DNA from: Cymbidium sinense
Taxonomy: Eukaryota; Streptophyta; Magnoliopsida; Asparagales; Orchidaceae
Reading direction: 5' to 3'
Assembly: GCA_021442155.1 (NCBI GenBank)
Contig: CM038214.1
Location: 318,587,001-318,651,000, forward strand
Length of the DNA: 64,000 nt
In this document: positions 4,979 to 41,663 of the stretch, piece by piece
How positions within the stretch are numbered: position 1 is the first letter of the stretch
Layout: each line of letters begins with the position of its first letter
Made by a program: the position numbers and the translations under genes
The notes under the pieces: generated by a model
The model's input: only the letters and a program-made list of their open reading frames with translations
The model's database searches: none
What the model was told of the DNA's origin: nothing

Positions 4979-4980
4979 TG

Positions 4981-8068: not shown

Positions 8069-8369
8069 TGTTGACCTCGCCTTAGAATGAGCTCTCAACC
8101 CCTCCATCTTAAACATATGACTCTAAGGACTCTCAACCCTAGAGACTTAGAAGATAGCCATGGAATAGGTCATGCCTTGGGTGTTAGGAAAATTTCCTAC
8201 CCTTAGCTTAAACAATTCCTCACTTTCCTTCTTTCAAGTCAAACTCCAAATCAATCTTAATTGATTGTCTCCAAATTCAAATCAACTCCATATGATTGAA
8301 ATCCATGATTGAAATCTATGATTGAAACCCATGATCAAAATCCATTAAAATAAGTTCAAATTTTTTCCC

Positions 8370-9060
8370 AAGTCCTTAATCTCCTCTTAAGGACTTAACC
8401 AAAATCATGATCAAAACCTATTCAAATTATTGAGATTTTGTCAAAATCCATTTATATTCTCATTTATATTCATATATAAAAATGAAATATAAATTCAAAT
8501 CAATCAAACTAAACTCAAAATTCCAAATTTAAAATCCTTGAAATTTCCTATGTCATTAATTCTCCATTAATGGACTTAGCCTAAACCTTGATCATATCAA
8601 TTCAAATCCTTGGGATTTTCTCAAAACTCATTTTTATTCTCATTTTTATTCATAAATATAAATGAAATATAAATATAAATCAATCAAATCGAATCCAAGA
8701 ATTAAATTCTCAATTTAAAATCGCTTTGTCTTAATTTTCCATTAATGAACTTAGCCTAAACCATCATCAAACCATATCAAAGTCATAGAATTTTCTCATA
8801 ATTCATTTATAATCTCATTTATATTCACATATATAAATGAAATATAAATATAAATCAATCAAACCAAATTCAAAAATTCAAAACCCAAATTCCAAAATTT
8901 TCCTAAGTCCCTTAAATCCTTCTTAATGGACTTAGCCCAAATCATGGTCAAATCACTTCAAACCCTTGACATTTTCTCATGATCCATTTATATTCCCATT
9001 TATATTCACATACATAAATGAAATATAAATTCAAACAATCAAAACCAATTCCAAAAATCA
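8370..9060 (+). repeat. Tandem repeat of about 175 bp, four units, in left LTR
   Basis: Each unit ends with an AT-rich core CATTTATATTCA followed by ATAAATGAAATATAAAT and CAATCAAA. Cores lie at about 8460, 8640, 8815 and 8992. Units also share a GACTTAGCC element and a TTTTCTCA element. The same array occurs at about 30110-30790 in the right LTR, so it predates insertion. Confidence 0.8.
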
Positions 9061-9383
9061 AACTCAAACCAACTCAAAATCCAATCTAAGCCTTTCAAGT
9101 CAAAATCTTGAACTTAGCCAAATCAATTTCAAATCATGCCAAACTCTTGATTTTCTCTCATGGTTCAATCAACCCTACAATCATGAGCTCATATATAAAT
9201 CCAAACTTCAATCAAACAATCAAAACCTAAGTCAAAAATCGAAACCAAAACCCTTTCATATTCTTCCTTTGAATATGAAATTGTCAAATGGATCTAAACC
9301 CATTTGACTTCAAACCACTTGTAAATGGATTTATATTTCAATCACGAGTCCATATACAAGATCAACCAACTTCAAATCAAGCT

Positions 9384-10204
9384 TTGACCAGGCCACTTGA
9401 CCCACTTAGGCTCACTTGACCCAAAGTGACCTAAAGTACCCTTATGAGCCAAATTTTGATCCTAACCAAATTGGATTGAACCAAACTCATATATCCCTCT
9501 CATCATGATCAATTAATCAAATTGGGTCAAACTAAGTCAAACCTAAGGGTTGACCAAGTCAACACTTAACCCAAAATGAAATCTTACATAGCCAAATTCT
9601 ACCATAGGCCAAATTGATTGAAACTATTGATCTAAGTTCCCTCATGACCTATGTTTGAACTTGACCAAGCCAACATTTGAGCCTAATAGCCCAATTGGCT
9701 CACTTGACCAAGTTGACCCATTTTGACCTAAAGGGTCAAAATTTGTCAAAACTTGATCTAAGCCAAATTGATTGAAACCAATGGGTCAAGTCCATTCCAA
9801 ATCTTGTGGAACTTGACCAAAGCCTCAATTGGCCAACTAGACCCAACCTAGCCCAATTGACCTTAGACCCAACATGACCTAAAGGGGTCATGTTGAGCCA
9901 AAATTGAACTTAACCAAAATTGATTGGAAACAAAGATACCAATCCACTCCATATGACTAACCTATCCTAAACCTACCCTTGACCTACCTCAAATAGGTCA
10001 AATGGGTCAAATAGGTCAACTTGACCCATTTGACCTAAATGAAGTCATATGAGCCAAATTCAAAACTATACCAAATTGAATCAAACCAAAGCCACCAAGA
10101 CATTTCAAATGGCCATATGAACTTGACCAAACCCTTGGTTTGACCCAATTTGACCTATTGGTCAACTTGACCCAAGTTGACCCATTTTGACCTAAATGGG
10201 TCAA
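9384..10204. promoter_or_regulatory. Dense cluster of TTGAC (W-box-like) cores in left LTR
   Basis: I count about 30 TTGAC or GTCAA cores on the two strands in about 820 bp, most of them TTGACC. This matches the W-box core (TTGACY) bound by WRKY transcription factors. Chance would give only about two. The cluster lies in the first third of the LTR, where retrotransposon enhancers usually lie. A regulatory role is inference; the pattern may partly come from tandem duplication of a TTGACC-rich unit. Confidence 0.6.
9995..10036. repeat. Perfect 16-bp inverted repeat within the TTGAC cluster
   Basis: Left arm AGGTCAAATGGGTCAA (9995-10010), 10-nt spacer, right arm TTGACCCATTTGACCT (10021-10036), exact reverse complements. 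In the right LTR it is kept at 31753-31794 with one mismatch. Confidence 0.9.
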
Positions 10205-11008
10205 CATGAGCCAAACCCTATCAAATGAATTCCAAATCTCATGAAACTTGGCCAAACCTAGTTTCTCCACATACCCAACATGTCCAAAGTGGAAAAATAG
10301 CAAAATGACCATCCTACCCCTAGGCCATAGAACAAATTTGGCTTGATCCATGGGTAATTTGGTCATACCCTCCTCACATTCACTTGAAGCTTTCCTAAAA
10401 GCTCAAGGGGACCTAGTGATGAGTGGTGCACCCAACCCAATGGGTTTTTAGCCCATTTGGTCCCTAGACCAAACCCACCCTATGGTCAAAAAATTGGAAA
10501 TTCAAACTCCTCTCAAGCTCAAATTCAAGCACATGGGAGGCGGAAATCCTCTTGGCTCAAATTGACCATGTGCACACTCCTAAGTGATCAAACCTCTATG
10601 ATCAATTGGATCAAAATGGCATGTCCATTATCAATCGCCCGATCCTTCAAGGGGAGATATACTCCCCCTAAACAAACTCAAATGCATCATTCCATAACTC
10701 GATTGAGTGCTAGACCTAGGAGCCATCAGAGAGTGATAGAAAGCATCCTACAGCTCATTCCATTCCCCCATTTCTCAATTTTTCAAACAATGAAAATAGG
10801 GGATGCCAATTGAATTTCCAACTTCTTCCACACTTCATTTCCTTCTAATTCCTTTTGCACACAGGTGACCAAGTCAACCTCACCTAAGTTGATTCCCAAG
10901 TTCTAAAGGCAAGGGAGGATTGAATTATATTAAAGCTGCAAGCAACCTAAGGAGGAGTTGGTCTATACATTGATCCACTCAACCTCAAGTGCTTATACTC
11001 TCAACAAG

Positions 11009-11031
11009 GCTTCTTCTCAACCAGATGAAGC
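11009..11031 (+). other. Conserved LTR hairpin, left-LTR copy
   Basis: Arms GCTTCTTCT and AGATGAAGC around the loop CAACC, 8 of 9 positions pairing. The equivalents at 32780-32802 (right LTR, GCTTCATCT/AGATGAAGC) and 53570-53594 (solo LTR, GGCTTCATTT/AAATGAAGCC) show a paired C-G to T-A change. Confidence 0.55.
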
Positions 11032-14000
11032 TTCTAAGGAATCGAGCATCGGTGATCACCGCCGATGAGGTATGAGATTTTTTTAGCATTAAACTCAATG
11101 TGGTGTGGAGCTTTGTGAAGCAAATTTTTACCCCATCGATTTAGACCATTATATTTGCCACTCTCTATCTTTAGATGGCGTGGGTTGAATTTGGTTTGAT
11201 TCCATGCTGACAGTTGATCTTCGATCATGGACATTGATCAAGGGGAAGAACTTGATGTTCTCGCCATCCATCCGCATGTTTTAGATGACCGAGATAATTC
11301 AACACATTTAGATTTCCTTTATCCATTTAAAACATGGGAGATCCCTGCCATCGATCTTTGATGAGATTAAAGCGCACCGCTAGCCACCCTCGTGATGTGA
11401 TGACTTAAGTAATCTCCTCACAGCATGACGCGTGTAAAGCGCGTTGCCGCCATGCATCGCATTGTTAGCCAGGGATTAGTTAGGGATTATTTAAAATGCT
11501 TAATTAATTCCTAATACACTTAAAGATCTTATTCATAACTCAAGAAAATTCAAAAAAAATGCAAAATAAAATCCTATGGATAGATAATTAAACCTAGAAC
11601 ATTTTAAAATTAATTTCAATGGGTTTTGAATTATGATTTTCTCTGAATTTGGGTTTTATTAGAAATTTATTTTGCTAATTACTTTTTAATTAGGCCTCTG
11701 ATTAATCCAAAATTTCTTGGGTAAGTTTTAGGGGATGACTTCTATCTCCCCTAATTTTCTTGGGATTTGTTGAATGCTTGATTAGAATAATGGCATATGG
11801 TTTCCTTAATTATCATCCTTATGTAATTAAGTATAATTAAGGTATGATTAGTTATTTTAACATATGATTAGGGTTGATTAAGGTCAGATCCAGTAAGTAG
11901 GAGGTTTATGGAATATTTTGGGGCATTTCCCCTATGTTATTCCCTAAACCCCCCTCTTCTCTCCTTAATGTCCTCTTAATTAAAAGTTAATTCATTAATT
12001 ATCCCCTTAATCAATTTCTAAAAATTCTAAAAAGTCCTCCAACATAATTAATCTACTTTGGGTAGATGCTTAGGTATTTAATAGACTAAGTTCAATTAAG
12101 GAAATCAAAACCCAATTCATAAGTATGAAGGGGTGTTTTGAAATAACTTAAGCTAAATATCTTAGCTTAATTAACTTTTAATTATGAGCCAAATTATATT
12201 AGACCCTTTTTTATTAGGTGCATTGAAAATTTAAATTATGGGTTTTATGTCATCTCATTGGCTCATAATTATTTAGTTAATTCTTCTAAGGTGGTGTAGG
12301 TGTTAATTAAGCTACTTAATTCATACCTTAACCTAATCAATGCATAAAAAATGGATCTAATTATCTAAAAATTAAACAAAAAAATATCAAACATATGTGG
12401 GAATGGGTTAGGAACAACAAACTCAACTCACCTTTTGAAAAATTAAATCAAACTTCAAACTAAACAAAAATCACTTTGAAATTCACTTTGATTTATTTTA
12501 AACTTTATTATTCCATAAGAATGTCTTTAGGATCTAAGTGAAGTGAGTTTGTTTACATGCTTTCATTGTTTGGATCTTTCCCCAACATGTTAAGTTGTAT
12601 GCCATGTGATTTCATGCATTCATAATTTTGAAATTCAAATTTTAAAATGAAATTGTTTACTTTATGTAAATTTTCATGTGTTGGCTAAAGTAGAAATATG
12701 AATGGCAATTAGCACTACTAAATCCAAATTATTTTCAAAACATATAAGTAAAATACCAAATCTAAAAGTATGCTACTTATATCTTAATTATGAGTCTGCA
12801 TGTGATAGATTATAAAGGCATGCTTAGCATAGGTTTCCTTTCTTTCTTATGTTGGTATAGTTTTGAATAGGAGTTGGTAAGATGTAGGGTTCTTTTGAAA
12901 AGAACCCAACACTTACATAATTTCATACCCTATTCATTCCTGTGCTATCACCTAAAAAGGTTTTCCTATATCTACATACATAAATTGCATAAAATAAAAT
13001 GAATCCATTAAACAACTTTTGCATTCTCCTTTTATATTTCATTTCTTTTATACATATGTTTGTATTTAAGAAAAGTGGTATATTAGTCTGAACAACCTCG
13101 AGGTTGCGAGGCTTTAAGTAGCCCTAAGTAGGTCTTGTACCTTACACCTTTGGTTAACAATGGCATTGTATTCACTTATGCCTTTCTTACTTTCATGTGT
13201 GTATGTGAAAATTTGGATAAGAAAACCCTTTTACTTAAGAAAATCATGCATACTAATCTTCTAAATTTCCCTAAATAGATTACTTAGCATGCATCATAAA
13301 GTGTGTTAAATATTCTCATTTGCATGTTATATATGTTAGGAAAGAAATGAAGTAATGTATGCTATGTGAATTTTGATACATTTTATTTAATCTTAAAATG
13401 CCTTTCTTTTTGAATAGGTTTATTTAGAGTTTATCTAAACTTAGGATTAATTAAAAGATTTAATCAAAAAATTCACCTAAATGAAACTAAAATGTGAATC
13501 TACTTTAGAAATTACTTAGGTTAGGGAAGGAAAGAGAAGTTATCTTCTCTTTCCCTCTCTTCATAACCTAGTAATTAATTGTAGCATCAACTTAAACCAA
13601 ATCAAAACATGAAATAAAATTAACCCAAAATGATTAAACAACTTAAATTAAACCTTCGCTAAGTTGAACATGTTCTTCACACTTAGAAAATTTGAACCTA
13701 AAGCCATAGTTAAGCATACCACACAAACCTTCAAAACACACACATTAGCCTAAGTCACCACTTCTAGCCTTAGGTTGGTGCATGGTTTGATGCTTGTTTA
13801 TTTTGTGATCTATGTTTTAGACTGGATGTGTGTATGCTCATAGAATGAATGGTAGGACACTTTAGTCTAACTATTCTTTTGTAGGGATTGTGCGGGTGCT
13901 ATCATAAATAAAAATATAAATGCTTAGTGCTTTATACCCCTAAGCATAATCCATAGAGTGGACTTAGTCACCCATGTGGGGTGATAAGTCCAATATACAT

Positions 14001-15848
14001 GCTTGGGATTTGTGTGGTTTATTTTAGCTAACCTTTGTTTTGTAGGTGTTAGTTAGATTTCCACTTTTCCTTTTCATGTAAATTTGTATAATTAGGATTT
14101 TGGAATGATTGTTATGGGGATTAGGATGAACATTGGTCATAATGTCCTATCTTATGCATCATGTGAAGACTTGGAGCATCTACCATCCAACCATCCAAAA
14201 GAAGTAACCAAAAGAAGAAATAAAGAAGAAAAGAAGAAGAAAGAAGAATGAAGCTTGAAGACCCCCATAATAATGTATTCCTTCCTTAATTGTAATTTAA
14301 TTCATTTATAACTGGTTGTATGGGTAGAGCTCGGCTACCCATATTTGATATTTTCGTTTGTGGTGCCACCACAATGGCCATTTATTCTTTTTGTGATTAG
14401 CTTCATAAATTGATTGATGATTTGTTTAGCTTTTGCATTAAGTGGCATGATTTTCCTAGTTTCTTCCTTGCTTTATGTATGGCCTAATGTGGATTAGACT
14501 CTTTAAGAAAAAAAAATCTTTTACCCAACTTAACAACTCAAACTATAATTAAATAACTCATAACCTCACCTAAAGTTTAGGTTTAAAATCAGGATAAAAG
14601 AATCCCTTAGCTGGATGATCATTTTTTTATAATATCATGCACAAATGCATCTTATTTCACTTTTGGTTGGAGGGCTTCCACCTTGCTGTGAGAAACAGCT
14701 TGACCTTTGAGAGCCATGGTGGAAACTCACCTCCCCTTCTCTGATTTTGGCCAATAACTCTATTTCTCATGCATTAGTCATATGAATCCAATTAGCCTAA
14801 GTCAAAATAATTGTCCAAAATGAAAATAAAAAATAAAATTTGAACTACATTAGATTTAAGTCATTTGAAGCATGCCCTTTACATGATCTAGTCTCTTTAT
14901 GGAGTGAGTTTAAGGACTTAGTCTCTTTCTAAATAATAATAGCCTAGCTATCTTGCATAAGCATAAAGACTTGCCTACATGTATTTAAAATCATAGGAGG
15001 AGTTAGTTGGTGGCCACCCCTGTGGTTGTAAGTCCAAGTTTGGGTGGTTTGTCCTCTCTTGTGGAGGCAAACCAATACCCATTTTCTCCTTAGATGGTTG
15101 GCTACCCAAAGCTCCCTAGATTTAGGTTCTGAGTTTGCTTCTCCTCTTTGTAGGCCATAAGTTTAATTCCTCACCTCTTAGGCATTTTCTTAATCTTATG
15201 TTAAGGAATCTTAAGTCCTAAATTTATAATGAAAAATGTAACTCAAACAAACTAAATCAATTACTAAAATGTAAAGCTCAACTATAGGATAGTTTGAGAT
15301 GCTCGCTATGTTTCCTAGCATCCTAAGCATCTTCTACTTATCTCCCATTTTGGCTTTGATAATAACTCCCTCTTTTGATCAATCTCATTTGATCTTCAAA
15401 CATAAACTAATCGATTGATAGTCCTTCCCTATTGAAATCTTCAAAGACAATGATCATTTACCTTAATCGAGAGTTTTCATAAGGGATCCCATCCCTTAGG
15501 ATGTAATTAACTATGGGAGCTTGCCCCTGTAGGAAACTTAATGAAGCTGTTTAAAATAAACCTTGCTTTACTTTTTCATGTAAAGTAGGGGAAGAATCTC
15601 TGGTACATAAGCAGACCCTTCATCCATAGGAGTCCTTATTAAGGTGATTAGGTCCATTAAAGGGTAGTGATTTTTGTCTTTTGAGATAGTACACTATTTC
15701 CTTGATGATGTACTTGATCACCTGAATAAGTACATCTATGGATCTGTGTGGCATCCTAAAAAGATGAATTTCTACAAGGTCTTGCCTTTCTTTCTCTCCA
15801 CAGATTTGAAGGTGACCCCTAATAGGAATTTTAAACCAACAAATTTTT

Positions 15849-15867
15849 CAAGTGACTCCACTGGAGA
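15849..15867 (+). other. Probable primer-binding site
   Basis: Starts 7 bp after the left LTR's terminal CA. The core TGACTCCACTGGAGA resembles, from memory, the TGGCGACTCCACTGGGGA type of tRNA-complementary site common in plant Ty3 elements, with several mismatches at its 5' end. Position and resemblance support it; the tRNA is not assigned. Confidence 0.45.
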
Positions 15868-16319
15868 TGGTTCCTCTCTCCATCTTTGGTAAATGATCAT
15901 TGTCTTTGAATATCAATAGTGGGTTTGTACTTTGGTTTGAATCCAAGACTATCTTTCTTTCCATTGGCACTTAGCTCATTTCATTCTTGAGTTAAGTTAG
16001 CCAACATCTTTAGGTTTTAGGACCGCATTCCTTGTTGGTCTTAAAACCCCCTTTGGGTTCTGCAATGGGTAAAATTAAAATATCTAAATAAAAAGAGAAA
16101 ACATCTTTTAAAGACTTCCTCATTATCATTTTCATGATAAGGAAAGGTTCATCCTAAAATAATAAATCTTCCATAAAAGAACTTTGCTTTTCAAAAGCAT
16201 CTTTTCTTAAAATTGCACATAATAAAATTTTTCACAAAATTTTGTCACCCTCATTTTAACAATTCCCATAATTGTTACATGTAGGGATTTTCAAAAATAA
16301 AACTAAACAACATTTCTTC
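15868..16319 (+). other. Leader between primer-binding site and hairpin array
   Basis: About 450 bp of AT-rich sequence downstream of the probable primer-binding site. I see no gene. Short TTTTCAAAA-type stretches toward the right end lead into the hairpin array. Confidence 0.4.
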
Positions 16320-18335
16320 AAAAGCATAAATGAATATCTTCTTTCAAGTCACTTTGATGAAGATTTCATTTTCAAAATAAAATGAACAACTCTTTTCCAA
16401 AAAATTAAAATCATAATCATAAAATTTTCAAAAAAGCACATGGATTTTTTTCTATTCAATACACTCACACTTATTGAATGGAAATTTCATTTATAAACAA
16501 AATTAAAATTTTCAAAAAAAACACACATGAACATCTTCATTTAATATACTCAAGTTTATTAAATGAAGATTTCATTCCCACCTAAAAAGAAAATATCTTT
16601 TAGGAAATCCCACTTAAAAATATCTCACATATGTTTTAAGTTGGAATTCCTCCCTTTCAAAAAGCAATAATCACACACAAAAATTTCATATTTCAAAAAT
16701 AAAATTGATCTCCATTCTAGATACTTAAATTTGTTGAATGGAAGTCCTCTTTTCAAAACATTAAAACTTCAACAATCATATTTCAAAAAAATTTCAAACA
16801 ACATTTGGAACTTCATTTAACATACCCAAATTTGTTAAGTAAAGTTTCCAAATCCAAAAAAAATTTCAAACAACATTTTGGAACTTCATTTAGCATAATC
16901 CAATTTGCTAAGTGAAGTTTCCAAATTCAAAATCAAAATCAACAATTATATTTCCAAAATTTTCAAACATTTGGAACTTCATTTAACATATCCAAATTTG
17001 TTAAGTGAAGTCTCCAAATTCAAAATCTAACAAAATTTTCAAACAACATTTGGAACTTCATTTAACATACCCAAATTTGTTAAATGAAGTCTCCAAATTC
17101 AAAATCTAACAAAAATTTTCAAACATACATTTGGAACTTCATTTAGCATAATCAAATTTGCTAAGTGAAGTTTCCAAATCCATAATCAAAATCAATAATC
17201 ATATTTCAAACTTTTCTAAACACATTTTGGAATTTTACTAAACTTACCCAAATTTGTTAAGTGAAGTTTCCAAGTCCAAAAATTCAAAATCAACAATCAT
17301 ATTTCAAAATTTTGAACACATTTGGAACTTCATACACCCAAATTTGTTAAGTGAAGTCTGCAAATCTAAAATCCAAAAAATTTTTCAAACAACTTTTTGG
17401 AACTTCATTTAGCATGCTCAAATTTGCTAAGTGAAGTTTCCAAATCCCAAAATCAAACATTTTCAAAACATATATTAGAACTTCACCTAGCATACCCAAA
17501 TTTGCTAAGTGAAGTTTCCAAAATCAAAACCAAAATTTCAAACACCTTTTGAACTTCTTCCTTAGCATACCAAATTTGCTAAGGAGAAGTTTCCATTTTC
17601 AAAACCAAAACAAATCACAATTTTGAACACACAATGTGAATTTCATTTAGCATACTCAAATTTGATAAGAGAAATTTCCATTTAACAAAACTAAGTGGGA
17701 CTTCATCTTTAGCATACCAAATTTTCTAAAGTTAAGTCTTCACTTTCAATCACATCAAAAACTAAACAAAACACTTAGGATTCCCTTAGCATACCAAATT
17801 TGCTAAGGATCCTACCCTTTTCAAAAATCAAAACATTCCAAACAAAAATGAAACACTTAGGATTTTCTTAGCATACTTAAATTTGCTAAGAATCCTATTT
17901 TCAAAAATCAAACAAAACTTAGATTCTTCACAAAGCATACCTAAATTTGCTAAGTAAGAATTCTAAATTTTCCAAAATTAAAACAAAATTCACAAAAAAA
18001 AAAACGAAAATCATTCTCAAACACTTCACTTAGCATACATAAATTTGCTAAGTAAAATTTCCAAAATGATAAAAAAAAAAACAAAATCACTTGACCCTTA
18101 GTTTAACATACCTAAATTTGTTAAAGGAAAGGGTCCTCAAAATCATAAAAATTCAAATTTCAAAAAAAATAATGAACCTATGGAAGCATCTTATCAAATT
18201 TTGAATCCATATTTCAACGTACTTAAATTTATTGAAGTTTGGATTCATATTAAAATTCCTCTTTCAATCGATCTTCTCAAATCCATTTGAATCTCACTTA
18301 ACACTTCTAAGTTGTTGGATGTGGGTTCAAATTTT
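16320..18335 (+). repeat. Array of about 24 tandem covarying hairpins in the element's leader
   Basis: Units of about 75-110 bp each hold an inverted repeat whose loop is conserved (about TACCCAAAT) while its stem changes in both arms together. Examples: AACA/TGTT in 17051-17094; AGCA/TGCT in 17399-17442; CCTTAGCA/TGCTAAGG in 17550-17594; TAGGAT...CCTTAGCA pairing with TGCTAAGGATCCTA in 17776-17814; GACCCTT/AAGGGTC in 18093-18135; TGAATCCA/TGGATTCA in 18202-18247. Common stems keep a T opposite G, a wobble pair only in the sense RNA. The array lies between primer-binding site and gag, in transcript orientation. Its function is unknown to me. Confidence 0.85.
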
Positions 18336-22100: not shown

Positions 22101-22925
22101 GAGAGTCCCATAGGAGAAGTTATAGATGAGCCTGAAGTGCAGGTAGAACCTTCCACCACCTTGCCTCAAGAGATTACCGAAGTCAACCTTCGTAGTGGCA
22201 AGGTTCTACCTCCTAGGGCAGCACCTCAAGATAGAGGGAAATAAGTTATTGGTACTAAAGATCGAGAAGCCCTTCCACAGGATGCTCCACCCTTGGATAT
22301 GCTTGTGGAAGACCAGCCGAAGGTGGACTACAATGTCCTTTCTCATCTAAGAAAGTTACCATCTAAGCTAAGCATATATGATGCCCTTGTCTTATCCAAA
22401 GAGATGAGGGAATCACTAATCAAGGCCCTCCTTTATCCCTAAATATGCTTAGCTCAACTAACCGCTATAGGTGAGGAAGCACATTATGTAAAAGAAGCCC
22501 AAGGGATCACCTTCATAGATGAAGACCTTCTCCTGGGGGACTTGGAGCACAATTGTCCCCTCTACATCATAGTTGACATGGATAGGTTTAGACTCACTAG
22601 GGTTCTCATGGATTCAGGTGCATTAGTAAACATTATGAGTCTAAAGACCCTTGCCTATTTGAAGATTGACATCTCTACACTCTGAGGAGATAGAATGATG
22701 TTGAGAGGATTCAATGATCAAGGTGAGTGGGCTTTAGGTTCTATAGTGTTGCCTTTGGAGATAGGTGACTAGAAAACTAAGCCAAGTTCTACATCATTGA
22801 TTCAAATACTTCATTCATTGCTTTGCTTGGTAGGCCTCAGATACATCAGAACAAGATCGTTTCATCCTCCCTTCATCAGTGCATCAAGTTCAAAAAGATG
22901 AAATTGAGTACCATGTCAATGTAAA
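22101..22925 (+). pseudogene. Retroviral-type aspartic protease remnant
   Basis: The upstream segment reads EITEVNLRSGKVLPPRAAP and then DYNVLSHLRKLPSKLSIYDA, a typical lead-in for plant Tat proteases. The catalytic DSG is intact at 22611-22619 within VLMDSGALVNIMSL. The C-terminal hallmark [10 protein letters not shown] / [20 protein letters not shown] is recognisable at about 22820-22890 across a frameshift. The enzyme would cut the gag-pol polyprotein. Stops at about 22441, 22684 and 22771 and the frameshift make it inactive. Confidence 0.82.
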
Positions 22926-23149
22926 AAAGCCATTTTAGTTAGAAGGTTGAGATCTATGAGGATGCAACCTACTATCTTCCTCAAAACACCCTTTCTCATG
23001 AACTTGGACAAAATTTAAATGAAAATACAAAAGCAAAGGAAAATGAAGTAAAAGAAAAGATAAAAGAAAATGAAAAGCAAAAATAAAAGTCTAAGTGAGA
23101 ACGAAAGGGGAATTGAAGGAGAAATAGATTAGCATATCACATTCCACCC

Positions 23150-24118
23150 ACAGTTCATTCCATCATATGAACATGTGGGTAGGATGGCTCAACCTCCACC
23201 AGGCAGAGGCAGAGGCAAAAATAGAGGTAGTCTTAGAGGTGGAAGACCCCCTAGTTGGCCTTCAACCAATAAAGGTCGTGTTCTAGTTCATAGAATTACC
23301 CCTACTATTCACATAGACTTGGAATCCATCTTAGAGGATGAGTCTAATGTGATTAGTATACCGAACCCCTCTCGGGTTCCATTGGAGGTGACTTTGATCT
23401 GAGACAGATGAAGACCGTGCCTCAAGCAAAGCAAAATATTCAATTTGGTTTATGTGAAACTATTAGGTAGAAGCTTGGGAACCTTAGCTCTTACCTCACT
23501 TACATCTCAGAAAGTTGAAGGTTTAATAGTTAAGGAAGTCCCTAAATCTTCCAATGACATGAAGTAGAAGAAGTTCTTTTGGGATCATCATCCTCAAGCC
23601 CTGAAGTTGATGTAGAGCTTAAGAAAGATACTTTTAAAGAATTAATGGAATTGTCTTTTAACTTTTACTCACCTTGTGTTCAAAATCTTATCCAAAAAGG
23701 TTTAGTTCCTCACACATGGTCCAAGCACAAGTCAGAATACTTCAAAAAGCTATGGAACAATATAGGAAGGGAAGCACAATCAAGAGTAGGACTAGAATTC
23801 AGTACAGTGGGTCTAGTCGATGATGAAGATTATTGCCTAATTGTTACTAACCATTTAAAATTTGATAGATTCTTCTCACACATCCCCAACTCTTATGAGA
23901 ATGTGTGTTTAGAAACTTCAGATGATCCAAATGATCTCCAAGTTAAAGAGGCACCACCAGAATTTGAAGAGGAGATTCATTCAATAATCAAGCTTAAAGA
24001 AATCAACCTCAGGATAGAAGAAAATCTTCGCCCAACATACATCAGTTTGTTACTGAATGAAGAAGAAACCAATGACTTAGTTAGGCTATTGACCGAGTTT
24101 AAAAATTTTTTCACATAG
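23150..24118 (+). pseudogene. Protease-RT linker: basic then acidic segments
   Basis: The segment 23175-23402 is open and begins with a Gly/Arg-rich tract (GRGRGKNRGSLRGGRPP); 23579-24118 is open for 179 codons and is acidic, with TNHLKFDRFFSHIPNSYENV and DPNDLQVKEAPPEFEEEI. Both are shared with the inverted fragment at 1-1727, so they are real polyprotein segments. I know no enzymatic domain for them. The second ends at a TAG immediately before SYEEMPRL, the lead-in to RT. Confidence 0.7.
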
Positions 24119-24800
24119 AGTTATGAAGAAATGCCCAGATTATCTCCTGACATAATAGTCCACAAGCTAGCAATAGATCTTAACATTAAGCAAGCTCCTA
24201 GACGCATGCAATTGGAAATTAAATAACAGGTCATTTTTGAAGTGAAAAAATTGATCGATGCTGGTTTCATCAGAGGAAAAAAATATCCTACCTGGTTAGC
24301 TAGTGTCATCCCACTTAAGAAGAAGAATGGCCAAATTTGTAAATGTGTCAATTTTAGGGACTTAAATAAGGCATGTCCTAAGGATGAGTTTCCTCTTCCT
24401 ATATCAGAGTTAATGGTGGACATCACCTCATCTCATGCTATCTTCTCTTTCATGGATGGATCATCTGGCTATAACCAAATCAAGATGTCTCCTGAAGATG
24501 AAAGAAACACTACTTTTTGAACCCCGATCAGAATCTTCTATTATAGGGTCATGCCTTTCGACCATAAAAATGCTCGTGCTACATACCAACGAGCCATGAC
24601 TCAGATCTTCAATGAACTCATCCATCATCAGGTTGAGTGCTACGTTGATGATCTAGTAGTCAAAGGTTTAGAAAAGAAAGACCACCTCTTTGACTTGAGA
24701 ATAGTTTTCGAATGGTTAAGATAATATAACCTCAAAATGAATCAAGTGTGCATGAGTAGCTTAGGAAAATTCTGGGTTTGTTGTTGACACGGGAAATAGA
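24119..24800 (+). pseudogene. Ty3/Tat reverse transcriptase remnant
   Basis: Contains SYEEMPRLSPDI, an IDAGFIRGKKYPTWLASVI block, VNFRDLNKACPKDEFPLP, SFMDGSSGYNQIKMSPEDER, YRVMPFDHKNARATYQRAMT and the catalytic CYVDDLVVKG with both aspartates (YVDD at 24641-24652). The order and wording are those of Tat-lineage RT, which copies element RNA into DNA. Breaks include a stop at 24225 within LEIK*Q and a stop at 24518, followed by further stops around 24720-24800. The family signature is very clear but no continuous ORF remains. Confidence 0.93.
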
Positions 24801-25400
24801 AATAAATCCTGAAAAGATTAAAGCTATCTTAGAAATGCCACCTCCTAAGAGTTTAACTCAACTCAGATCCTTTCAAGGATGGTTGTCATATCTAAGATGC
24901 TTTATCTCAAACCTATCAGGGAGATGAAAATTATTCTCAGCACTTATCAAAAAGGATGCCAAGTTCAAGTGGGATGACAAGTGCCAACATGCTTTCGAAG
25001 ACATCAAAGAGTACTTGGTGAAGCCGCCTAGACCCTAATCCCGTGTGCCACTCATCCTTTACACTATTGCATGACAATTTATCGACACTCTGGCCCAAGC
25101 CAATGATGAAGGGAAGGAGAGCTCTACCTCGCCATCATCTGATCCCAAACTATCCACCTATTGAGAAACATTGCTTAGCTTTGATCTTTGCATCTTAGAA
25201 GCTATGGCACTACATGCTTTCATAAGGTGAACTTGATCTCCCAAACCAATCAACTCAACTACAGTACCTCATGACACAGCCAACACTTTCCAAATGTTTG
25301 GCTCATTGGTCCATGATACTCTTGCAATTTTATATCACATTTGTACCCCTCTGTGCGGTAAAAGGACAAGTACTAGTAGATTTCTTAGCAACACACCCAC
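24801..25400 (+). pseudogene. RT connection and first RNase H domain remnant
   Basis: Matches PPPKSLTQLRSFQGWLSYLR-like connection sequence at about 24840-24895, KKDAKFKWDDKCQHAFEDIKEYL (in pieces, 24950-25020) and CLALIFAS*KLWHYML at about 25172-25220, ending with AVKGQVLVDFLATHPLPVDY (25357-25410). The domain removes RNA from the RNA-DNA hybrid during reverse transcription. Several frameshifts and stops are present. Confidence 0.8.
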
Positions 25401-25439
25401 TTCCTGTTGATTATTCGCTTAGTGACGATCTTCCCGATG

Positions 25440-25911
25440 AACAAATCATGAACTTAGGGGAGGCCGACAACCACCGATGGGAGATGTATTTTGATGGTGC
25501 TACTTCTTTTCTTAAAGGTAAAGCACCATGATCTACTCTTCTGGGAAAGGCAGGGGTAGAATAGTTCTTCTAACTCCAAACCACGATGTGATGAGATTCT
25601 CATACTATCTATCCAACCCCTACACCAACAATGAAGCTGAGTATGAGGATTTGATTGCCGGTTTGGAGTTAGCCATCACTATCAATGTCAAGAGCATCAA
25701 TATCCTAAGGGATTCTCACTTGGTCATCAACCAGATTGCTAGATCCTACCAGGTTCTCAAACCCAAGCTTTATCATTACTACGAGTATGATAATAAGCTA
25801 TTAGCCCAAATTCCAAGTCACCATCTAAGGTTCCCCGAAAGCAGAATGCAGATGCTTTGGCCAAACTTGCTAAAGAATTGGCATGTCCGGAAGTTGAGTC
25901 CATTTCAGTAA
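25440..25911 (+). pseudogene. Second, archaeal-type RNase H (Tat-lineage hallmark)
   Basis: Starts with WEMYFDGATSF (25478-25510), shifts frame at about 25530, then runs 127 codons with GRGRIVLLTPNHDVMRFSYY, YTNNEAEYEDLIAGLELAI and SINILRDSHLVINQIARSYQ. Positions equivalent to the acidic catalytic residues can be seen in YFDGA, NEAEYE and RDSHL. This extra RNase H after the first is characteristic of the Tat clade of plant Ty3 elements. One frameshift separates the first acidic residue from the rest. Confidence 0.85.
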
Positions 25912-25949
25912 GAGTCCTAGACAAGTCTTATCCCTTATTAATGCCGAAC

Positions 25950-27226
25950 TCATCGAGAGACTTTCTCTTGAAGGGGAGGTTGCAAAAAAATGGACAAGGA
26001 GCTAGATTGGAGGCAACCATTCAGATTACTTGAACAATGGCAAACTACCAAGATAAATCACAAACCCATCGTGAAATAGAGAGCTCTCTACACTCTTGTT
26101 GATGGCACCTTGCACCATCCATCATTTGACCAAATGTAGTTACATTATTTAGACAAACACGAAGCTCATGGAATTATAACTGAGTACACTCAGGTCTATG
26201 TGGAGCGCATCAATCCAATCTGAAGATGAAGAGAAAGATCAAAAGACTTGGATACTACTAGCCTTCGATGATCACAGATTATATGGATGTAGCTAGGAAA
26301 TGCCATCAGTGTCAGGTGCACAGTGTGGTCCTCCACTAGCCACCCAACATTCTACACCCTACTTTGGCTTCATGGCCATTTGAGAGTTGAGGTACCAACA
26401 TTATAGGTCCGATTGATGCTCCTTCTTCCAAGGGGCATCGATTCATCTTAGCTACCACCGAATACTTTTCCAAGTGGGCGGAAGCTATCCCACTCAGAGA
26501 TGTCATAGCTCACCATGTGCTTCAATTTTTTAGGAACCATATTGTATATAGGTTCAGGGTGCCTTGACAAATTATATCCAATAATAGTACTACATTCAAA
26601 AGCATGAAGATCAACAGCTTTTCCAGGAGACAAAATATAGATTGAGATACTCCACTATCTACTACCCTAGAGCTAATGGCTTAGCATAAGCATTCAACAA
26701 AACTCTCATCTAGATACTGAAGAAGACTCTTGATGATAATAAATGATAGTGGAATGAGCAGTTGGTTGTAGCTTGTGGGCCTACCACACCACATTCCGAA
26801 CTCTAACTCAGTCTACCCTATTTACCTTAGTGTATGGGTCTGAAGCCATTCTTCCTTTAGAAGTTCAACTCCCGTCAATAAGGATATCATTGGGTAATAA
26901 GATCACTATAGAGTAAATTACAAAGTTGAGGTTGGAAGAGCTCGAGGGAGAGGTTGCTAGAACCTCGAGTTATACAAAGCCAAAATGATTCAAGCTCACA
27001 ATAATTTGGTCTGCCTTAGGTCTTTCCAAGTAGGAAAACTTGTGTTAGTCCTATGGAGACTAATTATTACCCATCGAAAGATGGGAGACAAGTTTGAACC
27101 CACTTGGGAAGGCCCCTATGTCATAGAGAAGGCCAACCAAGGAGGATCTTATTAGCTTATTGATTGTAAAGGGTAACACTCGATGCTTCCAATTAATGGG
27201 ATCTATTTAAAGAAATATTACCCATG
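25950..27226 (+). pseudogene. Integrase remnant with all three catalytic positions lost
   Basis: The zinc-binding half ends with ARKCHQCQVH (CHQC at 26301-26312). The core shows IIGPIDAPSSKGHRFILATT and EYFSKWAEAIPLRD. The expected first Asp is Asn in GTNIIG (codon 26397-26399), the second is Asn in SNNSTTF (26580-26582; SDNGT expected) and the catalytic Glu is a TAA stop in NGLA*AFNKT (26687-26689). The C-terminal part has KMGDKFEPTWEGPYVIEKA (about 27078-27134) and ends ING.YLKKYYP. Integrase inserts element DNA into the genome; this copy cannot. Confidence 0.88.
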
Positions 27227-29727: not shown

Positions 29728-30109
29728 TATTGACCTCATTTTTAGAATGACCTCTCAACCCCTCCATCTTAGATATATGACTCCTCTTAGACTTTAAGAT
29801 TTCCTTAGTATTAAGGTACAACTAGTGAATAGGTGGACACTCAACCTAGGTGGACCCTCAACCTAGCCCTAGAGACTTTGAAGCGTTAGCCATAGAAATA
29901 AGTCATGCCTTAGGGGTGTTAGGAAAATTTCCTACCCTTAGCTTAAACCATTCTCACTTTCCTTCTTTCAAGTCAAACTCCAAATCAATCTTAATTGATT
30001 TTCTCCAAATTCAAATCAACTCCATATGATTGAAATCCATGATTGAAATCTATAATTGAAACCCATGATCAAAATCCATCAAAAATTCCTAAGTCCAAAT
30101 TTTGCCAAA

Positions 30110-30800
30110 GTCCTTAATCTCCTCTTAAGGACTTAACCAAAATCATGATCAAAACCTATTTAAATCTTTGAGATTTTCTCATAATCCATTTATATTCTCA
30201 TTTATATTCATATATATAAATGAAATATAAATTCAAATCAATCACACTAAACTCAAAATTCCAAAATTAAAATCCATGAAATTTTCTAAGTCATTACTTC
30301 TCCATTAATGGACTTAGCATAAACCTTGATCATATCAATTCAAGTCAATGGGATTTTCTCAAAACTCATTTATATTCTCATTTATATTCACATATATAAA
30401 TGAAATATAAATATAAATCAATCAAATCAATCCAAGAATTAAATTCCCAATTTAAAATCTCTTTAAGTCATTTTCCATTAATGAACTTAGCCTAAACCAT
30501 CAAAACCATATCAAAGCCATGGGATTTTCTCATAATTCATTTATATTCTCATTTATATTCACATATATAAATGAAATATAAATTTAAATCAATCAAACTA
30601 AATTCAAAAATTCAAAACCCAAATTCCAAAATTTTCCAAAGTTCCTTAAATCCTTCTTAATGGAGTTAGCCCAAATCATGATCAAATCAATTCAAACCCT
30701 TGAAATTTTCTCATGATCCAATTATTTTCTCATTTATATTCACATATATAAATGAAATATAAATTCAAACAATCAAAACCAATTCCAAAAATCAAACTCA
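30110..30800 (+). repeat. Tandem repeat of about 175 bp in right LTR
   Basis: Same four-unit array as at 8370-9060, with the CATTTATATTCA / ATAAATGAAATATAAAT core at about 30200, 30380, 30555 and 30735. Confidence 0.8.
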
Positions 30801-31116
30801 AATCAACTCAAAATCCAATCTAAGCCTTTCAAGTCAAAATCTTAAACTTAGCTAAATCAATTTCAAATGAAGCCAAACTCTTGATTTTCTCTCATGGTTC
30901 AATCAACCCTACAATCATGAGCTCATATATAAGTCCAAACTTCAATCAAACAATTAAAACCTAAGTGAAAAATCAAAACCAAAACCCTTTCATATTCTTC
31001 CTTTGAATATGAAATTGTCAAATGGATCTAACCCATTTGACTTCAAACCACTTGTAAATGGATTTAGATTTCAATCATGAGTCCATATACAAGATCAACC
31101 AACTTCAAATCAATCT

Positions 31117-31962
31117 TTGACCAAGCCACTTGACCCACTTAGGCTCACTTGACCCAAAGTGACCTAAAGTACCCTTTTGAGCCAAATTTTGATCCAAACC
31201 AAATTGGATTGAACCAAACTCATATATGCTCTTATCATGATCAACAATCATCATGGGATGATCAATTAATCAAATTGGGTCAAACCAAGTCAAACCTAAG
31301 GGTTGACCAAGTCAACACTTAACCTAAAATGAAATCTTACAAAGCCAAATTCCACCATAGGCCAAATTGATTGAAACCATTGATCTAAGTTCACTCATGA
31401 CCTATGTTTGAACTTGACCAAGCCAACATTTGAGCCTAACCTAGCCCAATTGGCTCACTTGACTAAGTTGATCCATTTTTGACCTAAAGGGTCAAAATGT
31501 GTCAAAACTTGATCTAAGCTAAATTGATTGAAACCAATGGGTCAAGTCTATTCCAAATCACTTGTGGAACTTGACCAAAGCATCAATTGACCAACTAGAC
31601 CCAACCTAGCCAGATTGATCTTAGACCCAACATTACCTAAAGGGGTCATGTTGAGCCAAAATTAAACTTAACCAAAATTGATTGGAAACAAAGATACCAA
31701 TCCACTCCATATGACTAACCTAACCTAAACCTACCCTTGACCTACCTCAAATAGGTCAAATGGGTCAAATAGGTCAACTTGACCCATTTGACTTAAATGA
31801 AGTCATAAGAGCCAAATTCAAAACTATACCAAATTGAATCAAGCCAAAGCCACCAAAACATTTCAAATGGTCATATGAACTTGAGCCAACCCTTGGTTTG
31901 ACCCAATTTAACCTATTGGTCAACTTGACCCAAGTTGACCTATTTTGACCTAAATGGGTCAA
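31117..31962. promoter_or_regulatory. TTGAC (W-box-like) cluster in right LTR
   Basis: Counterpart of 9384-10204 with most TTGACC/GGTCAA cores retained. The inverted repeat lies at 31753-31794 with one substitution in its right arm. Confidence 0.6.
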
Positions 31963-32779
31963 CATGAGCCAAACCCTATCAAATAAATTCCAAATCTCAT
32001 GAAACTTGCCCAAACCTAGTTTCTCCACATGCCCAACATGTCCAAAGTGGAAAAATAGCAAAATGACCATCGTACCGCTAGGCCATAGAACAAATTGTGG
32101 TTTAATCCATGGGTAATTTGGTCATACCCTCTTAATATTCACTTGAGCCATTCGTAAAAGCTCACTGGGACCTAGTGATGAGTGGTGCACCCAACCCAAT
32201 GGGTTTGGGTCAGCCCATTTGGTCCCTAGACCAAACCCGACCCTATGGTCAAAAAAATTGAAAATTCAAACTCCCTCTCAAGCTCAAATTCAAGCACATG
32301 GGAGGTTGGCAATCCACTCCTTGGCTCAAACCAACCATGTGCACTCCTAACTGATCAAATAGCCCTTAGCCTATGATCAATTGGATCAAAATGCATGTCC
32401 ATTGTCGATCGTCTGATCCTTCAAGGGGGAGATATACTCCCCATAAACAAACTCAAATGCATCATTCCCTAATTCGATTGAGTGCTAGTGAGAGTGGAGC
32501 CATCAGAGTGATAACAAGCATCCTAGAGCTCATTCCATTCTCCCATTTCAATTTTTCAAACAAAGGAAAGGAAGCCAATTGAATTGCCAACTCTTCCACA
32601 CTTCATTTCCTTCCAATTCCTTTTAAGGCACTTAGGTGACCAAGTCGAGCTCACCTAAGTTGATTTTGAAGTTCTAAAGGCAAGGGAGGACTAAATTGGA
32701 TCAAAGCTGCAAGCTACCTAAGGAGGAGTTGGTCCATACATTGGTCCACTCAACCTCAAGTGCTCATACTCTCAGCAAG

Positions 32780-32802
32780 GCTTCATCTCAACCAGATGAA
32801 GC
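32780..32802 (+). other. Conserved LTR hairpin, right-LTR copy
   Basis: GCTTCATCT, loop CAACC, AGATGAAGC: a perfect 9-bp stem. It matches 11009-11031 and 53570-53594. Confidence 0.6.
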
Positions 32803-35800
32803 TTCTCCAAGGGAATTGAGCACTGGTGATCACCTTTGGTGAGGTATGGGATTTTTTGACCATTAAACTCAATGTAGTGTGGAGCTCTGTGAAAGAAATT
32901 TTCACCCCATCGATATTTTACCATTGGATTTGCCTCTCTCTATCTTTAGATGGTGTGGGTTAAATTTAATTTGATTCCATGCTAAATCGAGCTTGGATCT
33001 TCCCCTTGATCATGGATGGTCTCCATCAATCAAGGGAAAGAACTTGGATGATCTCAGCCGTCCATTTGCATGTTTTATATGGATGGCTAAGATAATTCAA
33101 CACATTTATATTTCCTTTTATTTGATTTAAAATGTGGGGAGATCCCTGGTTGTCCGATCTTTGATCAGATGATAGATGATTAAAGCAAGTGTGCGCACCA
33201 CCCCGTGATGTGACTTAAGTAATCCCTCACGCACAAGTGTAAAGCACCACCGCCACCATGACGCGCCATGAGCTGTGGATTAGTTATAGATTATTTAAAT
33301 GCTTAATTATTTCCTAATTCACTTAGAGATCTTCCAAAATTATAACTCGTCTGAAAATTCAAAAAATGTGAAATAAATCCTATGATAGATAATTAAACTT
33401 AGAACATTTTAAAATTAATTTCAATGGGTTTAAATTATTATTTTCTCTGAATTTAAGTTTTATTGGAAAGTTTATTTCACTAATTAGTTTTTAATTCCTG
33501 ATTAATCACAAATTTCTTGGGTAAGTTTTAGGGGATGACTTGTACCTCCCTAATTTTCTTGAGATTTGTTGAAGGCTTGATTAGAATAGTTGCATATGGT
33601 TTCCTTAATTACCCTCCTTATATAATTAAGCATAATTAGGGTATGATTAGTGATTTTAACCTATGATTAGGGTTCATTAAGGTCGATCAGTAAGTAGGAG
33701 GTTTATGGAATATTTTGTGGCATTTCCCCAAGCTATTCCCTAAACCCCTCTTCTCTCTCCTTAATCTCCTCTTAATTTACTTCATTAATTATCCCTTAAT
33801 CAATTTCTAAAATTCTAAAAGTTCAACTTAATTAATCTACTTTAACTAGATGCTTAGGTGTTTAATAGCCTAAGTTTAATTAAGAAAATCAAATCCCAAT
33901 TCATAAGCAAGAATGTGTGTTTTGAAATTACTTAAGCTAAACCTCTTAGCTTAATTAACTTTTAATTGTGAGGCAAATTACATTAGGCCTTTTTCTTATT
34001 GGGTGCATTACAAATTTAAATTCCTTATGGGTTTTATGTCATCTCATTGGCTCATAATTATTTAATTAATTCTTCTGTGTGTAATTGTTAATTGCTACTT
34101 AATTCACCTTAACCTAATCAATGCATAAAATGGATCTAATTATCTAAAAATAAAACAAAAAATTATCAAACACATGTGGCAATGGGTTAGTAACAGCTAA
34201 CTTATCTCACCTTTTCAAAAATTAAATCAAACTTCAAACTAAACAAAAATCACTTTGAAATTCACTTTGATTTATTTTAAACTTTCTTATTCCATAAGAA
34301 TATCGTTTGGATCTAAGTGAAGTGAGTTTGTTTATATACTTTCATTGCTTTGGATCTTTCCCCAACATGTGAAGTTGTAATTCATGTGATTTCATGCATT
34401 CATAATTTTGAAATTCAAATTTTAAAATGAAATTATTTACTTTATGTCAATTTGTATTTGTTTGCTAAAGTAGAAATATGAATGGCTATTAGCACTACTA
34501 AATCCAAATTATTTTCAAAACTTATGAATCAAATACCAAATCTGAAAGTATGCTACTTATATCTTAATTATGAGTTTGCATGTGATAGATTATAAAGGCA
34601 TGCTTAGAATAGGTTTCCTTTCTTTCTTATGTTGGTATAGTTTGAATAGAGTTGGTAAGATGTAGGGCTCATTTGAAAAGAACCCAACACTTACTTAATT
34701 CATACCCTATTCATCCCTATGCTATCACCTATGAAGGTTTGCCTATATTTACATACACAAATTGCATAAAATAAAATGAATCCATTAAACAACTTTTGCA
34801 TTCTTCTTTTCTATTTCATTTCTTCTATGCATATGTTTGTATTTAAGGAAAGTGGTATATTAGTCTGGACAACCCTGAGGTTGTGAGGCGTTAAGTAGCC
34901 CTAAGTAGGTCTTGAACCTTACACCTCTGGTTAGCAATGGCTCTATACTCACTTATGCCTTTCTTACTTTCATGTGTTTATGTAAAAATTTGGATAAGGA
35001 AAACCCTTTTTACTTATGAAAGATCATGCATATTCAACTTCTAAATTTCCTTAAATAAATTACTTAGCATGTATCATAAAGTGTGTTAAATACGCTCATT
35101 TTCATGTGTAGATATGCTTAGGGTCCATCCATATGCATGTTATATATGTTGGGAAAGAAATGAAGTAATGTGTTTTATGTGAATTTTGGTTCATTTTATT
35201 TAATCTTAAATTGCCTTTCTTTTTGAATAGGTTTGTTTAGAGTTTATCTAAACTTAGGATTAATTATGAGATTTAATAAAAATATTCACCTAAATGAAAC
35301 TAAAATGTGAATCTACTTTAGAAATTACTTAGGTTAGGGAAGGAAAGAGAAGTTCTCTTCTCTTTCCCTCTCTTCATAACCTAGTAATTAATTGTAGCAT
35401 CAACTTAAACCAAATCAAAACATGAAATAAAATTAACCCAAAATGATTAAACAACTTAAATGAAATCCTCCTCTAAGTTGAACATGTTCTTCACACTTAG
35501 AAAATTTGAACCTAAAGCCATAGATAAGCATACCACACAAATCTTCAAAGCACGCACATTAGCCTAAGTCACCACATCTAGCCTTAGGTTAGGTCGTTCC
35601 ATGGTTTGGTGCTTGTTTAGTTTTGTGATCTATGTTTTAGACTGGATGTTAGGGTGTATGCTCATAGAATGAATGGTAGGACACTTTTAGTCTAACTATT
35701 CTTTTCTGTAGGGATTGTGCTTAAGGGGTGCTATCATAAATAAAAATATAAATGCTTTTGCTTACAGGTGCTTTATACCCCTAAGCATAATCCATAGACT

Positions 35801-37716
35801 AGGTGGACTTAGTCACCCATGTGTGGGGTGATAATTCCAATATATATGCTTGGAATTTCTATGGTTTATTTTAGCTAACCTTTATTTTGTAGGTGTTAGT
35901 TAGATTCCCACTTTTCCTTTTCATGTAAATTTGTATAATTAGGATTTTGGAATGATTGTTATGGGGATTAGGATGAACATTAGTAATATGATCCTATCTT
36001 ATGCATCATCTGAAGCCTTGGAGCATCTACCATCCAACCATCCAAAAGAGGTAACCAATAGAAGAAAGAAAGAAGAAAAGAAGAAGAAAGAAGAAAAGAA
36101 GAAAGAAGAATGAAGCTTGAAGACCCCCATAATAATGAATTCCTTCCTTAATTGTAATTTAATTCATTTATAATCCGAGTTGTATAAGGGTAGAGCTCGA
36201 CTACCCATATTTGATATTTTTGGGTTTGTACGGTGGTGCCCGACCACAACGGCCATTTATTCTTTTTACGATTAGCTTCATAAATTGATTGATGATTTGT
36301 TTAGTTCTGCGTTAAGTGGCATGATTTTCCTAGTTTCTTCCTTGCTTTATGTATGGCCTGGATGTGGCTTAGACTCTTCAGAAAAAGATTAATATTTTAC
36401 CCAACTTAACAACTCAAACTAAAATTAAATAACTCATAACCTCACCTAAAGCTTAGATTTGAAATCAAGATAAAAGAATTAACAACCCCTTAGCTAGATG
36501 AGCTTTTCTTTTATAATATCATGCACAAATGCATCTTATTTCACTCTGATTGGAGGGCTTCCACCTTTACCGAGAAACTGCAACCTTTGAGAGCCATGGT
36601 GGAAACTCACCTCCTCTCTCTTTTTGATTTTGCCAATAACTCTATTTCTCATGCATTAGTCATATGAATCCTATTATTGAGTCAAAATAATTGTCCAAAA
36701 TGAAAATAAAAAATGAAATTTGAATTGCATTAGATTTAGGTCATTTGAAGCATGCCTTTTACATGATCTAGTCTTTTTAGGGAGTGAGTTTAAGGACTTA
36801 GTCTTTTTTTAAATAATAATAACCTAGCTATCTTACATAAGTATAAAGACTTGCCTACATGTATTTAAAATCATAGGAGGAGTTAGTTGGCCACCCAGGC
36901 GGTTGTGTGTGATTTGTCCTCTCTTGTGGAGGCAAACCAATTACCCATTTTCTCCCTAGATTCAGGTTATGTTTTCAACCCTCGCCAAAGCTCCCTAGAT
37001 TTAGGTTTTGAGGTTGCTTCTCCCCTTTGCAGGCCATAAGTATAATTCCTCACCTCTGAGGTATTTCCTTAATCTTATGTTAAGGAATCTTAAGTCCTAA
37101 ATTTTTAATGAAAATGTAACTCAGACAAACTAAATTAATTTATAAAATGTAAAGCCCAACTATAGGATAGTTTGAGATGCTCGCAAGGTTTTCTAGCATC
37201 GTGAGCATCTCCTACTTATCTCCCATTTTGGCTTCAATAATAACTCCCTCTTTTGATCAATCCCATTTGTTCTTCAAACATAAACCAATCGATTGAGAGT
37301 CCTTTCCTATTGAAATCTTCAAAGACAATGATCATCCTTAATCGAGAGTTTTCCTAAGGGATCCCATCCCTTAAGATGTAATTAACTATGGAGGCTTGCC
37401 TCTATAGGGAACTTAATGAACCTGATTTAAAATAAACTCTGCTTTACTTTCCCATGTAAAGTAAGGGAAGAATCTCTGGTACATATGCAGACCCATCGTC
37501 TTTATGAGTCCTTATCAAGGTGATTAGTTCCATTAAAGGGCAGTGATATTTATCTTTTGAGAGAGTACACTATTTCATTGATGATGTACTTGATTACCTG
37601 AATAATTACATCTTTGGATCTTCATGGCATCCTAAAAAGATGAATTTCTATAAGGTCTTGTCTTTCTTTCTCTCCACAGATTTGAAGGTGACCCTAATAG
37701 GAATTTTAAACTAACA

Positions 37717-41654: not shown

Positions 41655-41663
41655 CTAAACCAA

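Follow-up and report, generated by a model that had tools for sequence, protein, structure and literature searches.

A tandem array of covarying hairpins in the leader of a large LTR retrotransposon from the orchid Cymbidium sinense

The locus examined here raises the question of what keeps the two arms of tandemly repeated hairpins complementary while their sequence diverges. Within the window, by which we mean the whole 64,000-nucleotide stretch of Cymbidium sinense DNA analyzed, the original prediction had described a two-kilobase hairpin array inside a giant element, with arms that change together, a constant loop and a wobble pair that would point to the sense RNA.

Self-comparison of the window identified two LTRs, which delimit an element of 29.6 kb spanning 8069-37716. 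Its principal parts are the following.
8069..15841, + strand: 5' LTR, 7.77 kb, starting with TGTTGACC and ending in ..CCAACA
15842..15870, + strand: putative primer-binding site (PBS), adjoining the 5' LTR end, from which its position was taken
22443..27152, + strand: pol remains in broken pieces, from profile matches and from pieces recognised by eye
29731..37716, + strand: 3' LTR, from self-comparison with the 5' LTR, with TGACC directly after it

The LTRs are 91.4% identical over 7671 aligned bases, the 3' LTR end being set at 37708 for this comparison. Their termini read TG..CA, and the flanks TGAAC (5') and TGACC (3') differ at one position and are probably a 5-bp target duplication; such ends and such a duplication are those of a Tat/Ogre LTR retrotransposon. 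Among the pol pieces, an RNase H-like RVT_3 domain (PF13456; 25522-25908, E 1.1e-8) exceeds the Pfam cut-off, and a weak reverse transcriptase match upstream of it (24227-24517) falls below. A protease-like piece at 22443 and integrase-like pieces at 26391-27152 were recognised by eye, the latter having no Pfam match. The RVT_3 domain may be the additional RNase H (aRH) that Tat/Ogre elements have between RT-RH and integrase, and the putative PBS presumably resembles the tRNA-type PBS of that group. The order of the pol pieces agrees with the Ogre/Retand gene arrangement as outlined in PMC6317226, and an LTR of 7.8 kb speaks for Ogre, because Retand LTRs are given as 315-1194 bp in PMC11963269. 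From these features we infer a Tat/Ogre-like Ty3/gypsy element, and more specifically an Ogre.

The element is inserted in a repeat, an uninterrupted relative of which is present in the window. Since this repeat carries a zf-RVT domain, it is probably a LINE, with one copy split by the element (5428-8067 and 37721-38057) and the other at the uninterrupted site (58306-61235). Other relatives of the element are also found in the window: a fragment at 56957-58265, which shares about 72% identity with the end portion of its LTR and represents an older relative, and a minus-strand fragment at 137-1555, 73-77% identical to its pol region (23377-25007). Long degenerate telomere-like arrays, consisting of AAACCCT with AAAATAAACCT variants, lie between the transposons at 2000-5000, 38200-38900, 40700-49000 and 62000-63000.

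The hairpin array follows the 5' LTR and precedes the coding region, with every pol piece downstream of it, and comprises the following features.
15964..16004, + strand: upstream hairpin with a 9-nt loop, one G-U and no A-C, outside the alignable array
16013..16048, + strand: upstream hairpin with a 12-nt loop, one G-U and no A-C, outside the alignable array
16104-16181: weaker fold, upstream of the alignable array
16239..16752, + strand: divergent 5' units, six hairpins (from alignment A1 and fold energy), stems kept, loop sequence lost in some
16799..17527, + strand: array core, nine hairpins with at most 19 stem pairs and a loop close to TACCCAAATT
17543..18335, + strand: divergent 3' units, ten hairpins, stem sequence replaced in several

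The original prediction of about 24 hairpins at 16320-18335 was thus right about the array but drew it too short: 25 tandem units can be aligned on the + strand at 16239-18335 (alignment A1), and two further hairpins precede them. Its placement between PBS and gag holds in that the array stands after the 5' LTR and ahead of the coding region, PBS and gag themselves being presumed. The A1 consensus is a 19-pair stem with a loop of about 10 nt, and loop centres are spaced 85 nt apart on average (range 61-121). Core units are close relatives of one another, and the flanking units are more divergent; the 5' part, the core and the 3' part are each found in other copies. One half of the loop, AAAUU, is constant, and mean pairwise identity among 17 of the 25 units is 0.84 in the loop vs 0.64 in the mid stem, with the conserved loop and inner stem sitting on a drifting outer stem. 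The loop, described at first as constant, is accordingly conserved in most units and lost in some outer ones. A covariance model built from A1 recovered its 25 units on the + strand, as it must by construction, and beyond the array gave no convincing match in the window (lowest E 0.14). Rfam 15 returned no match at gathering score in the window, the rest of the element holds no full 10-nt complement of the loop on the + strand, and a pattern scan of viral contigs gave no match.

Folding is far stronger than base composition would provide. Local fold energy over 16100-18340 is -414 vs -188 ± 9 in 40 dinucleotide shuffles, corresponding to z -26 on the + strand, with z -9 on the minus strand. 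The divergent parts yield z -8.3 (16100-16780) and -9.1 (17620-18340); among the comparison stretches, two from the LTR and two coding ones range from -1.7 to -6.0, and one flank gives -0.7. Standard pairs occupy 79.8% of the 455 A1 cells, as against 28.8-50.9% when the partner is slid by 1-3 columns. The A1 units were hand-picked around hairpins and the structure was derived from those of the core; for this reason, the number of two-sided changes carries more weight than the share of paired cells.

Covariation was assessed against a null in which the tree and the number of substitutions per branch are kept and the columns of the substitutions are moved, using a custom script rather than R-scape. 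None of 400 such nulls reached any of six pairing measures in A1, Watson-Crick cells amounting to 73% vs 45 ± 5%. Two-sided Watson-Crick replacements along branches numbered about 16.6 vs 1.25 ± 1.13 with a FastTree tree and 16.0 vs 1.23 with an IQ-TREE tree (0/300 nulls each), and 12.9 vs 0.90 (0/300) when only one unit per close cluster was kept (16 of 25). Per-pair power is low, and two of the 19 single pairs are clear (columns 27-45, 0/400; columns 20-50, p 0.003), with p 0.03-0.052 for four others and p of at least 0.07 for the remaining thirteen; used on its own, RNAalifold predicts just 7 pairs from A1. The claim that the arms change together is therefore borne out above a phylogeny-preserving null.

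To place the array in its family, the 3.53-Gb genome of the species was searched with the array core and the array 5' part as queries, and the best 40 of 2800 (core) and the best 40 of 4354 (5' part) first-look candidates were scored. Sixty loci were fetched and 52 retained as distinct copies, all located via the array itself; one locus (L002), at a separate place and 99% identical over the query, was dropped. An array-independent query was taken from downstream of the array (18400-19160), and the best 40 of 8371 candidates were scored. Ranks 1 and 2 were the window and a copy already in the set, and upstream sequence was read for ranks 3-16, 18 and 19, rank 17 being omitted because it lay about 2 kb from the match of L045. 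All 16 further copies picked by downstream sequence carry the array in the same orientation, model matches in one of them (L072) being confined to the 0.9 kb closest to the query. The array is shared by the family, and the inverted arms, whose loss in other family members the original prediction had named as its own test, are kept in each of these 16 array-independent copies. Some array-bearing places lie close together, namely L010, L014 and L015 on contig C4 and matches near C12:119.49-119.61 Mb and C11:76.9-79.8 Mb; being a few hundred kb to a few Mb apart, they are perhaps clustered or segmentally duplicated.

Each unit of a copy was set against its counterpart in the window copy, giving 1300 copy-unit cases; 1017 of them passed an orthology check, 163 did not, and the remaining 120 had too little sequence. 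The 50 of 52 copies with more than 800 usable bases entered the branch analysis. The internal-to-terminal counts of substitutions are 281:734 for stems, 110:260 for loops and 552:815 for linkers, that is, ratios of 0.38, 0.42 and 0.68 (Fisher p vs linkers 1.2e-10 for stems and 1.8e-4 for loops). Per site, terminal changes are similar (stems ~1.08, loops 1.06, linkers 1.22), and internal changes in stems (0.41) and loops (0.45) are half those in linkers (0.82). The contrast persists with transversions only, with changes from A or T, and with linker-only or stem-only trees, being weakest with stem-only trees (p 0.04 for stems and 0.07 for loops among changes from A or T). Pairwise diversity is likewise 0.094 in stems, 0.088 in loops and 0.134 in linkers. 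Purifying selection on stems and loops during active life, followed by neutral decay after insertion, would give this pattern. The linker comparison replaces an earlier test of whether G-U, A-C and other mismatches are depleted on internal branches, run on a global alignment of 25 of 30 rows (five with identity <0.80 left out). Depletion was strong there, but the test was dropped as its outcome hinges on how changes are split between branches. With covariation above the tree null, inverted arms kept across the family, and stems and loops constrained while active, the original argument that tandem duplication alone is insufficient stands.

Between copies, 24 two-sided Watson-Crick changes were counted vs 5.6-6.5 in two nulls; nulls reached the observed number in 0 of 60 cases on terminal branches and in 4-5 of 60 on internal branches. 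Half of these changes (12 of 24) fall at columns 27-45, a pair that alternates between A-T and G-C from unit to unit, and unit exchange may explain them. For comparison, hairpins in the LTRs offer 495 pairs, 71 of them changed since insertion, with no Watson-Crick-for-Watson-Crick swap, a control that is only indicative because the LTRs have diverged less (0.09) than the units have from one another (0.17-0.30). The LTRs contain an array of their own.
8363..9162, + strand: tandem array of ~180-bp units in the 5' LTR, with its 3' LTR counterpart at 30108-30903 and one hairpin in most units

This array is G-poor, as is the leader array, and shows no two-sided change; with only 0.2 expected, it has low power as an internal control. 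A separate run of strong hairpins on TTGACCC/GGGTCAA, nearly perfect in both LTR copies, is located at 9700-10214 and 31468-31971.

Which strand is selected is a further question, for which wobble pairs had been offered as evidence of sense RNA. The T opposite G is real, occurring in 6 of 25 units at columns 21-49 of A1 (T-A 9, T-G 6, C-G 9, C-A 1), mostly as one inherited state; as evidence it is weak, since new G-U pairs arise as often as new A-C pairs. Among the 50 copies, Watson-Crick pairs turned into G-U as often as into A-C on both internal (72.9 vs 74.5) and terminal (169 vs 179) branches. Over all A1 cells G-U and A-C count 31 and 28; A-C is depleted against the tree null (58 ± 12, 0/300 as low), and depletion of G-U is not clear (47 ± 12, 30/300 as low). 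Reversions from A-C to Watson-Crick on internal branches number 15.6 vs 6.3 expected (0/60 nulls within stem columns), and those from G-U equal expectation (6.0 vs 6.0). Two other wobble counts were set aside: a strand-symmetric stem finder gave 19 G-U vs 20 A-C in 33 hairpins of the window, and the 159 vs 95 cells in 126 strong hairpins of the 16 array-independent copies were not used as proof of sense, because cells are inherited and new-pair events are equal.

Base composition is also asymmetric. In A1, G makes up 144 of 926 stem bases (15.6%) and 24 of 1171 other bases (2.0%), so that 144 of 168 G lie in stems; C is found 147 times in stems and 232 times elsewhere (19.8%), and linkers are 56% A. 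SIV and HIV-1 RNAs are described similarly, with G-rich paired regions and unpaired regions that are half A (PMC3616985). An excess of paired G is seen in the LTR array as well, to a lesser degree (0.64 vs 0.45 in shuffles). Mutation after insertion is strand-symmetric in the LTR pair (C/T 194, A/G 171), which implies that G was lost earlier, through selection or strand-specific mutation of single-stranded cDNA. Sense folds better than antisense (0.63 vs 0.40), largely as a consequence of composition, and the strand difference in fold energy (z -26 on + and -9 on -) was rejected as a sign of sense selection for being a composition effect. Negative design of linkers was rejected as well: linkers with balanced G and C left the predicted hairpins unharmed (0.64), so misfolding avoidance does not explain G-free linkers in that folding model. 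Together, A-C reversion and the confinement of G to stems lend weak support to sense RNA, which is probably the selected molecule.

The array is very probably a selected structure. As we would reconstruct it, it forms a modular domain of the element's genomic RNA, with some 25-27 short hairpins strung like beads, stems of up to 19-20 bp and loops of about 10 nt on A-rich, nearly G-free linkers. Tandem duplication would have spread the hairpins, and while the element replicated, purifying selection may have preserved the pairing of the arms and the constancy of the loops despite drift in stem sequence, each array copy decaying freely after insertion. The hairpins could then serve as multivalent Gag-binding sites for packaging or dimerisation, as suggested by an array at the retroviral packaging-signal position with many near-equal copies, a conserved loop and a drifting stem. 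By position, covariation and constraint, it is a conserved RNA structure between PBS and gag, as a packaging signal would be, with both landmarks presumed. Gag binding as such is a plausible but tentative assignment; the whole reading, a selected modular domain in the leader whose sense strand binds Gag multivalently, is on balance the one we favor.

An unlikely though credible alternative accepts a selected RNA with another ligand, namely a translation or export leader that promotes ribosome bypass (shunt or internal entry) or recruits a nuclear-export factor. The leader has at least 26 ATGs in 15842-18520 and hence many short upstream ORFs, which makes plain scanning unlikely, and structured leaders act in this manner in plant pararetroviruses (PMC5902531, PMC12786077). 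On the other hand, the pararetrovirus leader described in these sources is one large stem-loop, vs 25 small ones here, and ATG is not clearly depleted in 16320-18335 (17 vs 21.9 ± 3.7, z -1.3). At this z, upstream-AUG avoidance was also discarded as a cause of the wobble.

Palindromes acting at the DNA level, whether as binding sites or as satellite-like repeats, with no role for RNA, are improbable. Such motifs have precedents in the repeated palindromes of Sirevirus LTRs, proposed as cis-elements (PMC2829016), and in Tat/Ogre arrays that seed satellites (PMC7004042), and constraint on stem and loop alone would fit a DNA site too. Here, however, pairing is kept while stem sequence changes, the reverse of what a sequence-specific DNA site would show, and base composition is strand-asymmetric by pairing state.

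Mutational upkeep without selection is very improbable. Hairpin-templated template switching, most plausibly by the element's reverse transcriptase, would copy one arm to the other; template switching in DNA replication has been argued for RNA genes (PMC8794818), and columns 27-45 do show two-sided states without intermediates (A-T 12, G-C 10, G-T 0, A-C 0). Columns 21-49, by contrast, display the stepwise route (T-A 9, T-G 6, C-G 9), and the LTR hairpins bear no trace of such switching in host DNA. Nor would it conserve loops or slow stems and loops relative to linkers in active lineages only, and the internal-branch deficit therefore argues against purely mutational upkeep.

A small-RNA source or decoy supplying Dicer-like enzymes is least credible, given that stems of ~19-20 bp around a 10-nt loop are short for Dicer-like processing and that Rfam, with no match at gathering score, gave three sub-threshold miRNA matches, all on the minus strand, even if CaMV and RTBV leaders are described as dsRNA decoys (PMC5902531).

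A selected, Gag-binding RNA domain can be set beside several known systems. Large Tat-lineage elements (Tat/Ogre, Retand) likewise carry family-specific tandem arrays in a non-coding internal region, as described in PMC7004042 and PMC11963269, but those arrays lie between pol and the 3' LTR. The present one is in the 5' leader upstream of the pol pieces, its units are covarying hairpins, and none of the TRF matches listed falls between 23089 and 29830. In the available text of both sources the word 'hairpin' is absent, and 'palindrom' occurs only in a reference of one. By those papers' descriptions, leader position and covarying hairpin units set the array apart from Tat/Ogre arrays downstream of gag-pol. 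The repeated motifs (RM) of Sireviruses are palindromes too, present several times in non-coding regions of these plant LTR retrotransposons; they are short (11-17 nt among those listed in PMC2829016) and sequence-conserved, lie in the LTR upstream of the TATA box and near env, and are proposed as DNA cis-elements. Our hairpins lie in leader RNA outside the LTR and vary in stem sequence. HBV, with many stem-loops sharing a loop motif and proposed to bind core protein, resembles the array; in RNA viruses and HBV, though, packaging stem-loops are dispersed over the genome and assembly has been assayed, while here they form one tandem array recognised from sequence alone (PMC7612645, PMC7793301, PMC3593212). 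Plant pararetroviruses share a long structured leader with short ORFs in a reverse-transcribing element, yet theirs is one large stem-loop, with the CaMV PBS downstream of it (PMC5902531). The orchid array, unlike that of CaMV, consists of many small hairpins downstream of the LTR and probable PBS. Among the titles listed in our search, which left the original Ogre papers mostly outside, none dealt with covarying hairpins in tandem within a retrotransposon leader.

Plant LTR retrotransposons make up much of many plant genomes, and their leader structures are little known; the review PMC12786077, in the part available, names no plant packaging structure. A more specific and more doubtful proposal is that the array is an expandable scaffold of about 25 near-equivalent Gag-recognition hairpins, which gains members through tandem duplication while their stems drift within the limits of pairing. 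If true, a packaging signal would be built in the manner of a satellite repeat. Many copies, each with about 25 paralogous hairpins, would provide a ready-made set of natural variants of one RNA contact, in which linkers and post-insertion decay are built-in neutral controls. More broadly, a tandem array within a retrotransposon can be a selected structured RNA, not a passive repeat.
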